Assembly (NCBI RefSeq): GCF_014805525.1
Contig: NZ_JACFSZ010000005.1
Span: 62,001-126,000, forward strand
Direction of reading: 5' to 3'
DNA from: Rhabdothermincola sediminis
Lineage (GTDB): Bacteria > Actinomycetota > Acidimicrobiia > Acidimicrobiales > Acidimicrobilacustridaceae
DNA length: 64,000 bases
A program made the position numbers and the translations under genes. Below are positions 16,331 through 25,383 of this stretch, in pieces (position 1 is the first letter of the stretch; each line of letters starts with the position of its first letter). The notes below the pieces were generated by a model, which was not told the origin of the DNA, made no database searches, and worked only from the letters and a program-made list of their open reading frames with translations.

Positions 16331-16433
16331 CCCGAGGAACACGGGAGCCCGGGCACGTCGGGCTGAGAGGGAGGGCAGTTCCCCTCCGACCGTTCGAACC
16401 TGATCCGGGTCATGCCGGCGCAGGGAGGCTCGG
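16331..16433 (+). promoter_or_regulatory. TPP riboswitch (THI element)
   Basis: The conserved thiamine pyrophosphate aptamer is recognisable: GGGAGCCC then GGGCTGAGAGG in the pyrimidine-sensing arm, and CGAACCTGATCCGGGTCATG followed by CCGGCGCAGGGAGG in the pyrophosphate-sensing arm. CCGAG (16332-16336) can close the P1 helix with CTCGG (16429-16433). A near copy of the 5' P1 strand recurs at 16449-16455, eight bases before the ATG, and could compete for CTCGG, giving a plausible translational expression platform. It precedes a thiamine kinase and thiamine transporter operon, matching the expected regulon. Confidence 0.93.
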
Positions 16434-16463
16434 TTCGTCTCGTGTGTTCCCGAGGACCACGCG

Positions 16464-17189
16464 ATGACCATCCGACGAGCCCCACACCCGTCACCTGCGC
16501 CGCCGCCCAGCGGCCCCCTCGCGGTGGTGTTCACCGGAGGTGAGCGACCGTCGCCGGACGCTCTGGACGGTGTGCCGAGGGACGCCTACGTCATCGCCGC
16601 TGACTCGGGTCTCCACCACGCGCTCGACCTCGGCTGGCCGGTGCACGTCGTGGTCGGCGACTTCGACTCGGTCGACGTCGGCCTACTGGCGCGGGCCGAG
16701 TCGCGGGGAGCGGTGGTCGAGCCCCATCCCGAGGCGAAGGATCACACCGACCTCGAGCTCGCGCTCCGGCGGGCGCGGGAGCTCGGGGCCCGCCAGGTGG
16801 TCGTGGTCGGTGGGGGAGGCGGTCGCTTCGATCACCTCCTCGCCAATGCCTTGGTGCTCGCGTCCGCCGAGTTCGCGCCGCTCGAGATCGAAGCCCGCCA
16901 CAGCGGGGCGCGCATCCACGTGGTGCGCAGCTTGGCGCGACTCTCGGGCTCGCCGGGTGAGCTGGTGACGCTGCTGCCCATCGGTGGCCCGGTGCACGGG
17001 GTGACCACGGCGGGTCTGCTGTACCCGCTCGCCTGCGACACCCTGATTCCCGGCACGACCCGGGGCGTCAGCAACGAGTTGCTCGGCGAGCAGGCCACGG
17101 TGGAGGTCGGCAGCGGGGTGCTGATCGCCATCCAGCCCGGTGGTCGGGGCACACACGTCTTCCGACAGCTCACAGGAGGCATCACGTGA
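16464..17189 (+). CDS. thiN: Thiamine diphosphokinase
   Basis: A 241-residue thiamine pyrophosphokinase that transfers pyrophosphate from ATP to thiamine, giving TPP. The catalytic domain shows AADSGLHHA, VGDFDSV (65-71) and KDHTDLELAL, the acidic Mg-ATP site of this family, followed by GGGGGRFDHLLANA. The C-terminal beta-sandwich thiamine-binding domain has VTTAGLLYPL and GVSNEL. The N-terminal 16 residues are Pro-rich and may be non-conserved. The gene follows the TPP riboswitch and overlaps the transporter gene by four bases (GTGA), so imported thiamine is probably activated by the product of the same mRNA. Confidence 0.92.
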   Translation: MTIRRAPHPSPAPPPSGPLAVVFTGGERPSPDALDGVPRDAYVIAADSGLHHALDLGWPVHVVVGDFDSVDVGLLARAESRGAVVEPHPEAKDHTDLELALRRARELGARQVVVVGGGGGRFDHLLANALVLASAEFAPLEIEARHSGARIHVVRSLARLSGSPGELVTLLPIGGPVHGVTTAGLLYPLACDTLIPGTTRGVSNELLGEQATVEVGSGVLIAIQPGGRGTHVFRQLTGGIT

Positions 17190-22274: not shown

Positions 22275-22300
22275 CAGGGCCCCGCTACCGCGGGGCCCTG
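22275..22300 (+). terminator. Hairpin terminator after the secreted-protein gene
   Basis: CAGGGCCCCGC and GCGGGGCCCTG form a perfect 11-bp stem around a TACC loop, 22 bases after the stop codon. No T-tract follows, as is usual in high-GC actinobacteria. Confidence 0.75.
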
Positions 22301-22324
22301 TCGCGTTCCGGAGTCACCCATCAA

Positions 22325-22368
22325 CTGGCAGGTCAAACGCGTGCTTTGGCACGCGTTTGACCTGCCAG
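22325..22368. repeat. Perfect 44-base palindrome, copy 1
   Basis: A 20-base arm (CTGGCAGGTCAAACGCGTGC) is repeated exactly in reverse complement around a TTTG loop. It lies just before the TauE-type permease gene. A related palindrome at 23952-24001 shares 16 of 20 left-arm bases. It could be a member of an extragenic palindromic repeat family or a terminator; two copies alone cannot decide. Confidence 0.85.
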
Positions 22369-22398
22369 AACGCAGGGGGGTCGCCGTTTCGATCCGGG

Positions 22399-23145
22399 AT
22401 GGCTCACGGTGGCACACTCGCAGGCTTGAGCCCGTTCACGCTGCTCGCCGCCGTCTCCGTCATGGCCGCCGGCGCGGCCGTTCAAGGATCGGTGGGATTC
22501 GGTGCCGCGCTGGTCGCGGCGCCCTTGCTCGCCCTGCTCGACCCCACCTTCGTGCCGGCACCGCTCATCCTCGCCGCGCTGGTCCTCAACATCCTCATGC
22601 TCCGGCGGGAACGCGGTAGCCATCACTGGCGCGCGGTGGCCTGGCCCATCGCCGGCCAGATCCCCGGGGCGCTGATGGGCGCCACCGTGCTCGTGCTGGC
22701 CAGCGACGACGGCGCGCTCGGCGTGATCTTCGCCGCCATGATCCTGGCCGCGGTGGCCCTCTCCATCTCGGGCCTACGGGCTGAGCCCACCCCACCGGTG
22801 CTCTTCGCCGCCGGCAGCCTCTCCGGGTTGATGCAGTCGACGGTGGGCGCGGGAGGCCCGCCCATCGCGCTGGCGTTCCAGGGTCGCAGCGGCCCTGACC
22901 TGCGGGCGGCACTCGCCCGCTACTTCACCGTCTCCTGCCTGGTCTCGCTGGGGTTCCTGGCGGCGGTCGGTCAGATCGGCGGCCGGGAGCTCGTGGACGC
23001 AGCCGTCCTGATGCCGGGGGCGGTCACCGGTTTCATCGGGTCCGGATGGGTGTCCCGCCACGTCGACGGGGTCGTGGCTCGTCGGGCGGTGCTCACCCTC
23101 TCGGCCCTCGCCGCCCTCGCGGTCCTGGCCCGGTCGTTGGCATGA
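22399..23145 (+). CDS. TSUP (TauE/SafE) family permease
   Basis: A 248-residue membrane protein with about eight helices of the TSUP family, which exports or imports sulfite, sulfoacetate or other organic anions. The two family repeats show as VQGSVGFGAALVAAPLLALLDP and LMQSTVGAGGPPIALAF, each with the conserved glycine-rich half-helix. ATG 22399 is chosen; the frame extends upstream only into the palindrome. The stop overlaps the start of an ABC ATPase gene (ATGA), an unusual partner for a secondary transporter. Substrate unknown. Confidence 0.87.
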   Translation: MAHGGTLAGLSPFTLLAAVSVMAAGAAVQGSVGFGAALVAAPLLALLDPTFVPAPLILAALVLNILMLRRERGSHHWRAVAWPIAGQIPGALMGATVLVLASDDGALGVIFAAMILAAVALSISGLRAEPTPPVLFAAGSLSGLMQSTVGAGGPPIALAFQGRSGPDLRAALARYFTVSCLVSLGFLAAVGQIGGRELVDAAVLMPGAVTGFIGSGWVSRHVDGVVARRAVLTLSALAALAVLARSLA

Positions 23146-24005
23146 GCGCTCCACGGGCCGGGCAGGATCCGACAGTCGAATTGCGGAGCGTGTCGCTGGT
23201 CCGCGGCGCACAGGTGATCCTCGATGGCGTCGACTGGGTCGTGCAGTCCGGTGAGCGATGGGTGGTGCTCGGCCCGAACGGCTCCGGCAAGACCTCGCTG
23301 CTGCGCATCGCGTCGCTGTGGTTGCATCCCACGAGCGGGCAGGTGCGGGTGTTCGGCCACCAGCTCGGACGGACCGACGTCCGGCGTCTGCGGGGTCGCA
23401 TCGGTGTGGCCAGTGCCGGCTCGGCCGATCAACTGCGCCCGAGCCTCACCGCGCTCGAGGTGGTGATGACCGGGCGGTACGCCGCCCTCGAGCCGTGGTG
23501 GCACACCTACGATGACGCCGACCGGACGCGAGCCGCCGAGCTGCTCGACCGGATGGGGGTGGGCGCGAGGACGGCCCACGGGCTGGGCTCCCTCTCGTCC
23601 GGTGAGCGCCAGCGGGTGCTGCTGGCCCGCGCGCTGATGGCCGAGCCGGATCTGGTCCTGCTCGACGAGCCGACCGCGGGTCTGGACCTGCCGGGTCGGG
23701 AGGAGCTGGTGGCCAGCCTCGATGACCTGGCGGCCGATCCCTCGACGCCGCCGACGGTGCTGGTCACCCACCACGTGGAGGAGATCCCGCCCTGTTTCAC
23801 CCATGCGCTGCTGCTCTCCGCCGGTCGGGTGCAGGCGTGCGGTGCGATCCGGGAGGTGCTCACGGCTGAGGCGCTCTCGGCCTGTATGCGGATGGCGGTG
23901 CAGCTCGACCGTGATCCGACCTCGGGCCGGTTGAGCGCCCGCGCCCGACGCGAACCGGCAGGCAAAGCGCGTGCGGGAGCACGCGCCTCGCCTGCCGGTT
24001 CATGA
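23142..24005 (+). CDS. ABC transporter ATP-binding protein (stand-alone)
   Basis: A 287-residue ABC ATPase with Walker A GPNGSGKTS, a Q-loop region reading VASAGSADQLRPSL, signature LSSGERQRVLLARAL, Walker B LVLLDEPTAGLD and H-loop VTHHVEEIP. It resembles the soluble YlmA/ModF-like subgroup. No ABC membrane subunit is encoded nearby; the ATG overlaps the TSUP permease stop (ATGA). The last 18 residues (from REPAGKARAG onward) are encoded by the second palindrome and are probably an acquired tail. Role unknown: it might act with an unlinked permease or in a non-transport role. Confidence 0.85.
   Translation: MSAPRAGQDPTVELRSVSLVRGAQVILDGVDWVVQSGERWVVLGPNGSGKTSLLRIASLWLHPTSGQVRVFGHQLGRTDVRRLRGRIGVASAGSADQLRPSLTALEVVMTGRYAALEPWWHTYDDADRTRAAELLDRMGVGARTAHGLGSLSSGERQRVLLARALMAEPDLVLLDEPTAGLDLPGREELVASLDDLAADPSTPPTVLVTHHVEEIPPCFTHALLLSAGRVQACGAIREVLTAEALSACMRMAVQLDRDPTSGRLSARARREPAGKARAGARASPAGS
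23952..24001. repeat. Near-perfect 50-base palindrome, copy 2
   Basis: Arms of 23 bases, starting GAACCGGCAGGCAAAGCGCG, pair at 21 of 23 positions around a GGGA loop. The core (CCGGCAGG...GCGTGC) matches copy 1 at 22325-22368. It overlaps the last codons of the ABC ATPase gene and ends two bases before the terminal TGA triplet region. Confidence 0.85.
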
Positions 24006-24017
24006 GTCGGGCGTTGG

Positions 24018-24023
24018 TACGCT
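24018..24023 (+). promoter_or_regulatory. -10 box (TACGCT) of the CNNM/CorC operon
   Basis: TACGCT lies after the palindrome. It is inside the frame that could be translated from the upstream GTG at 23971, which argues that translation starts further downstream. Confidence 0.5.
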
Positions 24024-24057
24024 GGCGGCGACCTGCCCCCGGCCACGGAGTGCACCG

Positions 24058-25383
24058 ATCAACCTCGCGCTCGGCCTGCTGGCCGTCTGCTTGCTGATCG
24101 TCGCCAACGGGGTGTTCGTCGCGGCCGAGTTCGCCCTGGTGGCCGTGGACCGGAGCCGGATCGACCGCCAAGCTGAGGCCGGCAGTCGGCGGGCCCGGTC
24201 GGTGCGGGCCCTGTTGCGGCGGCTGTCGTTCCATCTGGCGGGCGCCCAGCTCGGGATCACGGTGACGTCGCTGGTGATCGGCTTCCTCGCCGAGCCGGTG
24301 CTCGCCGAGGTGCTGCGGCCGGTGCTGGAACCGATCGTGGGCGCCCGAGCGGTCCGCGGGCTGGCCGTCACCGTCGGCTTCGTACTGGCCACCATCGTCC
24401 AGATGATCGTCGGCGAGCTCATGCCGAAGGGTCTCGCCATCGCGCACCCCGAGCGCACCAGCCGGGTGCTCGCACCGTTCCTCACGGCGTACGGCACCGT
24501 GTTCGGACCGCTGATCCGGGCCCTCAACGGGGCGGCCAACTGGACCGTGCGGCGTCTGGGCATGGAGCCCCGTGAGGAGCTCTCGCGGGTCCGCACCCTC
24601 TCGGAGTTCGAGCTGCTGGTGGCGGCGTCCGAGCAGGAGGGCACGCTCGCCGGCTCGGCGTCGACGCTGCTCACCAGGTCGATCCGGTTCGGTCGCAAGA
24701 CCGCGGCCGACGCGCTGGTGCCACGGACCTCGGTGCGGGCCATCCCGCTCGACGGCACGGTCGCGGACCTGGTGGCCGCGTCGGCCGAGACCGGGCATTC
24801 GCGCTTCCCGGTCTACGGCGCGGACCTCGACGACATCCGGGGCGTGGTGCACGTGCGTGCCGCTCACACCGTCCCCCAGTCCCGGCGGGCGACCACGGGC
24901 GTGGGCTCGCTGATGACTGACGTGCTCACCGTGCCGGAGAGCCGGGAGCTCGAGGACGTCCTGTTCGACATGCGCTCCCGCCGCCAGCACCTCGCGGTGG
25001 TGGTCGACGAGTACGGCGGGACGGCAGGGATCATCACCCTCGAGGACATCATCGAGGAGATCGTCGGCGAGATCGACGACGAGTACGACACCGTCACCCC
25101 GCGCCTCACCCGCGTGCGCGGTCCGGGAGAGTGGGTCCTGTCGGGGACGCTGCACCGCGACGAGGTCTACGACGCCACCGGCCTCGAGGTGCCCGAGGGA
25201 AGCTTCGACACGCTCGCCGGCTTCGTGCTCGACCGGTTGGGCCACATCCCCGAGGTGGGCGAGCAGTTGAGCTGGGACGGCTGGACCCTGACCGTCGTGG
25301 CCATGGACCGCCGGCGGATCGCCGAGGTGGCCGTCGTGGGACCCGGCGAGGAACCCCAGCCGGAAGGGCCGGGGAGGCGATGA
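24058..25383 (+). CDS. CNNM/CorC-HlyC family membrane protein with CBS domains (first of pair)
   Basis: A protein of about 441 residues: an N-terminal DUF21/CNNM domain with three to four helices (LALGLLAVCLLIVANGVFVA, then AQLGITVTSLVIGF and VGELMPK), a CBS pair (RFPVYGADLDDIRGVVHV; VVVDEYGGTAGIITLEDIIEEIVGEI, shown in parts), and a C-terminal CorC_HlyC beta domain. Members handle Mg or Co transport or efflux. The start is unusual: the best-placed codon is ATC at 24058, which follows GGAG and matches where homologues begin; the only standard upstream start is GTG 23971 inside the palindrome and before the promoter. Start remains uncertain. It overlaps the next gene by four bases. Confidence 0.85.
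   Translation: MNLALGLLAVCLLIVANGVFVAAEFALVAVDRSRIDRQAEAGSRRARSVRALLRRLSFHLAGAQLGITVTSLVIGFLAEPVLAEVLRPVLEPIVGARAVRGLAVTVGFVLATIVQMIVGELMPKGLAIAHPERTSRVLAPFLTAYGTVFGPLIRALNGAANWTVRRLGMEPREELSRVRTLSEFELLVAASEQEGTLAGSASTLLTRSIRFGRKTAADALVPRTSVRAIPLDGTVADLVAASAETGHSRFPVYGADLDDIRGVVHVRAAHTVPQSRRATTGVGSLMTDVLTVPESRELEDVLFDMRSRRQHLAVVVDEYGGTAGIITLEDIIEEIVGEIDDEYDTVTPRLTRVRGPGEWVLSGTLHRDEVYDATGLEVPEGSFDTLAGFVLDRLGHIPEVGEQLSWDGWTLTVVAMDRRRIAEVAVVGPGEEPQPEGPGRR

Follow-up and report, generated by a model that had tools for sequence, protein, structure and literature searches.

The two palindromes of the window—the whole stretch of 64,000 nt analysed here (G000:C5:62001-126000), from a Rhabdothermincola sediminis assembly of 3,293,621 bases (3.29 Mb) in 49 contigs—are probably copies of a hairpin element that is REPIN-like, non-autonomous and specific to its lineage. 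The original prediction's observation of two related palindromes is confirmed, and its reading of them as a mobile palindromic repeat family is largely right. Copy 1, at 22325-22368, is indeed perfect, with 20-bp arms on either side of a 4-nt loop, and copy 2, at 23952-24001, has 23-nt arms that are complementary at 21/23 positions (91%), also around a 4-nt loop. Their left arms agree at 16/20 positions, and three of the four differences between them are compensated, in line with the claim that substitutions are largely paired. While these coordinates stand, the true unit is longer than was first proposed, 52 nt in each case (Table 1). Folding of windows around copies 1 and 2 gave z values of -9.7 and -7.8, equalled by none of 200 dinucleotide shuffles, and in the window (G+C 71%, non-coding share about 6.7%) they are the only matches to the family pattern at 0 mismatches. 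Neither palindrome has an Rfam match at gathering score; the sole match in the window is a TPP riboswitch (16331-16443), upstream of the gene at 16524-17189. A shorter perfect hairpin, AGGGCCCCGC-TACC-GCGGGGCCCT, is present at 22276-22302, about 20 nt upstream of copy 1, and is placed 3' of a predicted secreted-protein gene.

Table 1. Coordinates, in the window, of the two hairpin copies and the genes around them
Feature	Position	Strand	Remarks
Copy 1, 52-nt hairpin repeat	22321..22372	.	G000:C5:84321-84372; 68.3 bits
Copy 1, perfect 20-bp arms	22325-22344 / 22349-22368		loop TTTG
TauE/SafE-type permease gene, between the copies	22426..23145	+	Pfam TauE; start codon uncertain
ABC ATPase gene	23142..24005	+	Pfam ABC_tran; C-terminal tail EPAGKARAGARASPAGS encoded by copy 2
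Copy 2, 52-nt hairpin repeat	23951..24002	.	G000:C5:85951-86002; 59.3 bits
Copy 2, arms	23952-23974 / 23979-24001		loop GGGA; last 17 codons of the ATPase frame
CNNM/CorC-type gene, downstream	23971..25383	+	ORF start given; start codon uncertain

The 52-nt unit in this genome and across the order

The family is dispersed through the genome, with 57 strong copies in 35 clusters. A covariance model (R1) scores all 57 at 46 bits or more, and a gap separates them from two weak copies of at most 31.5 bits (C1:41870 and C1:51919) and one chance-level match. Further copies, on which the original prediction depended, are also abundant in a genome-wide pattern search, in which a 40-nt pattern allowing up to three mismatches has 55 matches per strand and a reversed control pattern has none. 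The unit consists of a 24-bp stem and a 4-nt loop, and its ends are mostly CGTTCT/CGAACT. In alignment A1 (57 own copies, 52 gapless columns, from 32 stretches around copies) the consensus is CG(TTC or AAC)Y-GGCA(T or G)G-TCAAAC-GCGTGC-NNNN, followed by the complement, and the inner GCGTGC-N4-GCACGC is nearly invariant. Pairing drops sharply to background at pair 25, both in these copies and in 76 copies from relatives. Within a copy the arms vary in concert: 24/50 distinct own copies have perfect 18-bp inner arms, whereas 5,000 shuffles of right arms among copies gave 7.5 on average and 17 at most. For covariation within the own copies this test is clearer than a column-shuffle control, which gave a modest result (covariation score reached by 12/500 shuffles, percent paired by 29/500). 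Inner arms are perfect in 13/19 single copies versus 12/38 array members, and all four pairs of the end block form in 11/19 own singles and 40/72 relatives' singles versus 4/38 own array members. A free orientation of the end block was rejected, the block being mostly paired in single copies.

The geometry of this hairpin recurs in the order with other stems. The own-type pattern has no convincing family in 147 relatives, all of other genera (three have one chance-like place each), and R1 has matches in 5/60 other genomes. A second model, R2, was built from alignment A2, which comprises 21 diverse rows; a false palindrome in L067 was dropped, and an L115 copy that cannot be aligned at 52 nt and several near-duplicates were omitted. 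With the best 19 scored candidates per genome, R2 has matches at E <= 1e-4 in 19/298 genomes of the order (own included), from 17/172 genera. Where sequences were inspected, in the own and 12 other genomes, the 24-4-24 layout and GTTC/GAAC-type ends recur, and the stems change by genus (GGTCCCCCGATCGCGCGC in G103, TGCATGGTTTCGGCGTGC in G006, GACAGGCGAAACGTGCGC in G090); the G003 hairpins are a weaker case. Among the 114 own ends, GTTC accounts for 37, GAAC for 33 and CAAC for 25, and none has GTAG or GTGG; GTAG is found at some relatives' ends (G006 4/20, G090 6/24, G037 1/22). In A2, 93.7% of cells are paired, versus merely 26-37% when the structure is slid along the alignment, and covariation is 0.628 versus 0.183 in shuffles (0/500), figures that are not independent proof because the rows were chosen by models that reward pairing, so that near-perfect stems in relatives are partly selected for. 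A phage source and spread beyond the relatives were considered and rejected: the core has no exact match in viral_contigs, and in genome_contigs it is matched exactly in 10 records, once in each, with at most 12/18 arm positions paired, which is regarded as chance. Separately, a second palindrome family with the core GAGTACATG, arms of about 20-22 bp and the 3-nt loop ATT was seen at L120:1364, L164:488 (G050) and L155:1533 (G103), in the same two genomes, G050 and G103. By eye, each arm of the G242 hairpins (L205, L206) also contains a small REP-like palindrome, GTTCTGG-CA-CCAGAAC.

Placement beside genes and at orthologous junctions

Genes were called with a simple codon-usage caller purpose-written for the analysis. 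On these calls, 34/35 own clusters lie outside genes, three of them overlapping a predicted gene end, in contrast to a non-coding share of about 7% in the window; copy 2 is the single cluster inside a reading frame. Apart from copy 2, the gaps are convergent in 13 cases, tandem in 15 and divergent in 6, and convergent gaps are enriched (13/35 with a hairpin vs 10/105 without, chi-square p = 0.0007, the 105 hairpin-free gaps being drawn from two slightly overlapping sources, the own loci and the window). For the 80 clusters of relatives the count is 31 convergent, 30 tandem, 9 divergent, 7 in predicted frames and 3 undetermined. In own and relatives' clusters taken together, hairpins lie a median of 16 nt from gene 3' ends (n = 134) and 68 nt from gene 5' ends (n = 76). 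The 69 genes flanking own copies have mainly metabolic or housekeeping Pfam matches, with one Mutator transposase (among 75 of 95 matched families).

Intrinsic terminators are stable hairpins just after stop codons, with a T tract following the stem. The present hairpins are likewise stable and lie shortly 3' of stop codons; unlike terminators, they have no T tract, form a conserved sequence family and occupy divergent gaps too. It is nevertheless conceivable, if unlikely, that they work as RNA elements at 3' ends under selection, either as terminators (factor-dependent or U-less) or as stabilisers of the mRNA, and owe their similarity to duplication and gene conversion rather than transposition. 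The median of 16 nt after stop codons, the excess of convergent gaps and the very stable stems are what such elements would display, but 6/35 own clusters are in divergent gaps, 80/114 ends carry no T or one T within the 10 nt on either side, and a terminator scan called neither window copy. Moreover, the conservation of GCGTGC and GGCA exceeds what termination requires, and the strong hairpin ahead of copy 1 could already terminate transcription there. As an alternative to insertion bias, the hairpins could be kept in these positions by selection for some role at the 3' ends of genes.

The permease and the ATPase were originally thought to be flanked exactly by the two palindromes. Copy 2, however, is part of the ATPase gene, with the stop codon directly after it. 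In those relatives in which the ATPase end can be read, the stop lies where the own copy 2 starts or slightly beyond it; for example, the protein ends in DRWTARSRS in G009 and in GRLSARARR plus EPAGKARAGARASPAGS in the own genome. This end position suggests that copy 2 supplanted the old stop codon and, judged from the sequences, it appears to have added a 17-residue tail to the ATPase, in which case a repeat is seen rewriting the C terminus of a protein. The proposal that the palindromes mark the boundary of a cassette is not borne out. The ATPase is followed directly by the CNNM gene in 12/21 relatives, and a TauE gene is beside it at 0/11 relative loci checked. Copies 1 and 2 therefore delimit no co-moving unit, and a TauE-ATPase cassette was rejected on the neighbours of the relatives' ATPase genes.

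Two orthologous junctions, at which the empty sites compared belong to other genera or families, illustrate how sporadic the hairpins are. At junction 1, own L058 and G050 have hairpins with different stems at the meeting point of one shared pair of orthologous genes (identities of 77% and 65%), and R2, applied to 30 loci from 28 genomes, picks up a hairpin there in G050 alone besides L058. A separate scan of this junction identified in G043 a hairpin with a longer loop and GTTCTGG ends, short hairpins in G305 and G002, and, where a truncated match begins at two G004 loci, a perfect palindrome that resembles an assembly artefact; no hairpin comparable to those of L058, G050 and G043 was found at the other loci among the 30. 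In eight same-family genomes, those with both genes close together, 12-69 nt separate the protein matches, vs 154 nt in the own genome and 118 nt in G050. At junction 2, the ATPase, 22 loci have R2 hairpins only in the own genome (copies 1 and 2) and in G006, and G014, which is congeneric with G006, has none at this locus; in G006 a gene other than CNNM comes after the ATPase, and the junction is thus shared on its ATPase side only. A further candidate, a conserved position behind the L117/L159/L184 gene, was discarded because this gene is one of a large set of paralogues and the closer homologue in G050 is elsewhere. Such presence and absence at orthologous junctions, as read from genome comparison, would fit the mobility envisaged by the original prediction, and the fact that most of the relatives' junctions have no hairpin counts against 3'-end RNA elements under selection.

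Known repeat systems and the search for an enzyme

The literature drawn on (PMC3116915, PMC3733652, PMC3686654 and PMC12306157, each in selected passages) offers REPINs and REPs as the closest comparisons. REPINs, as the passages of PMC3116915 describe them, are inverted REP doublets moved by RAYTs in Pseudomonas fluorescens SBW25. The repeat described here is, like them, a multi-copy, mainly extragenic consensus palindrome that forms inverted doublets folding as long hairpins with compensatory changes, has tandem clusters that take in flanking sequence, and is lineage specific in sequence. Unlike the REPINs in those passages, it comes without a RAYT (Y1) that could be found and without a 5' GTAG/GTGG, and it has a very short loop and one rigid length of 52 nt. 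Neither these tetranucleotides nor CGTC, the other 5' tag of REPs, characterise the own ends. With the GTAG and CGTC REPs, as presented in parts of PMC3733652, it shares palindromes located between convergent and unidirectional genes, some of them intragenic, and with the CGTC REPs also the lack of a dedicated transposase. The differences are that those REPs have an unpaired tag and stems of 6-13 bp in the GTAG and 8-9 bp in the CGTC group, whereas here the end block, GTTC/GAAC, forms all its pairs in over half of single copies. For Actinomycetota, the passages of PMC12306157 give REP counts for Acidimicrobium ferrooxidans and no sequences, and within the terms used we found no description of this repeat in the open-licence literature. 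It is REPIN-like by distribution and has an architecture common across the order, yet with the RAYT and the GTAG tag missing it cannot be classed as a REPIN proper.

A REP-type (Y1) transposase had been expected to accompany the palindromes, but it was sought in the own genome and not found. PF01797 (Y1_Tnp, the RAYT/IS200 domain) has no match there, whereas 5/14 control genomes, including E. coli, are positive, and with no Y1 gene found in the genome there is none for the repeat to flank. Across 61 genomes (own and 60 relatives), Y1_Tnp is present in five, none of which has the hairpin by R1, and is absent from all nine that bear hairpins by R1 or R2 (own included), in a set that omitted the hairpin-bearing G090, G103, G219, G242 and G305. 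Half-arm matches listed for the 49 contigs of the own genome all fall in hairpin copies save isolated ones, and among them there is no full-length parent and no arm pair flanking a transposase.

MITEs are non-autonomous inverted-repeat elements of intergenic DNA, a description that applies to this repeat as well. Unlike them, it has only 4 nt of internal sequence, no convincing target-site duplication, and no parent insertion sequence among the half-arm matches listed. We consider it quite improbable that the copies are classical MITEs, that is, terminal inverted repeats of a DDE-type insertion sequence, empty inside and moved by its transposase. A structure made of inverted repeats only would agree with this, as would one Mutator-type transposase gene (PF00872, L062:3271-3888, truncated where contig C4 of the own genome ends) at a distance of about 225 nt from a hairpin. 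However, no full-length parent is among the half-arm matches, and direct repeats of at least 4 nt beside the 52-mer occur in 0/19 own singles (0.12 expected) and 3/76 relatives' singles (0.45 expected), which is neither a convincing nor a consistent target-site duplication. The Mutator transposase, one gene by one copy, is treated as a coincidence and not as the mobiliser.

Arrays and a possible mode of spread

Arrays of two to four copies form 16 own clusters, to which the L065 pair with its truncated second copy can be added. The period in these 17 arrays is 62 bp in seven and 63 bp in two, the others being 73, 75, 75, 82, 83, 84, 95 and 110 bp; a spacer of 10-11 nt is therefore recurrent. 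Two 62-bp pairs with a different stem sequence are also found in another genus, in G006 (L124:2939-3052 and L104:1346-1459). Spacers vary from array to array, and arrays of at least three copies reuse one identical or near-identical spacer, so that these are not the unique spacers of CRISPR type. In L053 and L064 the spacer is the sequence right of the last copy, which, with the repeated spacers of the longer arrays, points to local duplication of the hairpin together with adjoining DNA; in the other two-copy arrays the spacer is unlike the flanks. The recurrent 62/63-bp spacing and the near-invariant GCGTGC-N4-GCACGC would both suit dyad-symmetric binding sites of a DNA-binding protein, whether a nucleoid organiser or a regulator. 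We nonetheless regard such sites as very improbable, because the stem is replaced wholesale across genera with its pairing kept, the placement is near gene 3' ends, and spacings other than 62/63 have no significant helical phasing. In a Rayleigh test over the 17 arrays the signal comes from the 62/63 class (remainder n = 8, p = 0.09), and 10.5 is no special period, so helical phasing was rejected.

For the element that we favour, a REPIN-like hairpin dispersed in a non-autonomous manner, the following route can be imagined. Single-stranded DNA, for instance on the lagging strand, would fold into the hairpin, and an enzyme acting in trans would recognise its fixed geometry and GTTC/GAAC-type ends and copy or move the unit; recognition of geometry would leave the stem free to drift as long as its arms stay complementary. 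Insertions would survive chiefly right after stop codons, where harm is least, and arrays would grow through local duplication of the hairpin and its neighbouring spacer. With no Y1 (RAYT/IS200) detectable in the own genome, the enzyme might be of another nuclease class or might have been lost. A bolder version, which we put forward tentatively and with considerable doubt, is that there is an order-wide class of rigid 52-nt hairpins whose stems are replaced by genus while geometry and ends are kept, dispersed by a non-Y1 enzyme that may also set the 62/63-bp period, and thus a new hairpin-copying system. How REP-like repeats disperse when no RAYT accompanies them is a question that the literature leaves open, as for the CGTC REPs (PMC3733652, in the parts drawn on). 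The order offers a clean case of it, with a fixed geometry, many stem families, no Y1 found in the hairpin genomes tested, and filled and empty orthologous sites, and the distribution of the hairpins could allow a co-occurrence search for the missing enzyme. Finally, at L067:1940-3232 (own C7), the four-copy array lies behind a stretch that, by eye, resembles a degraded oxidoreductase gene.
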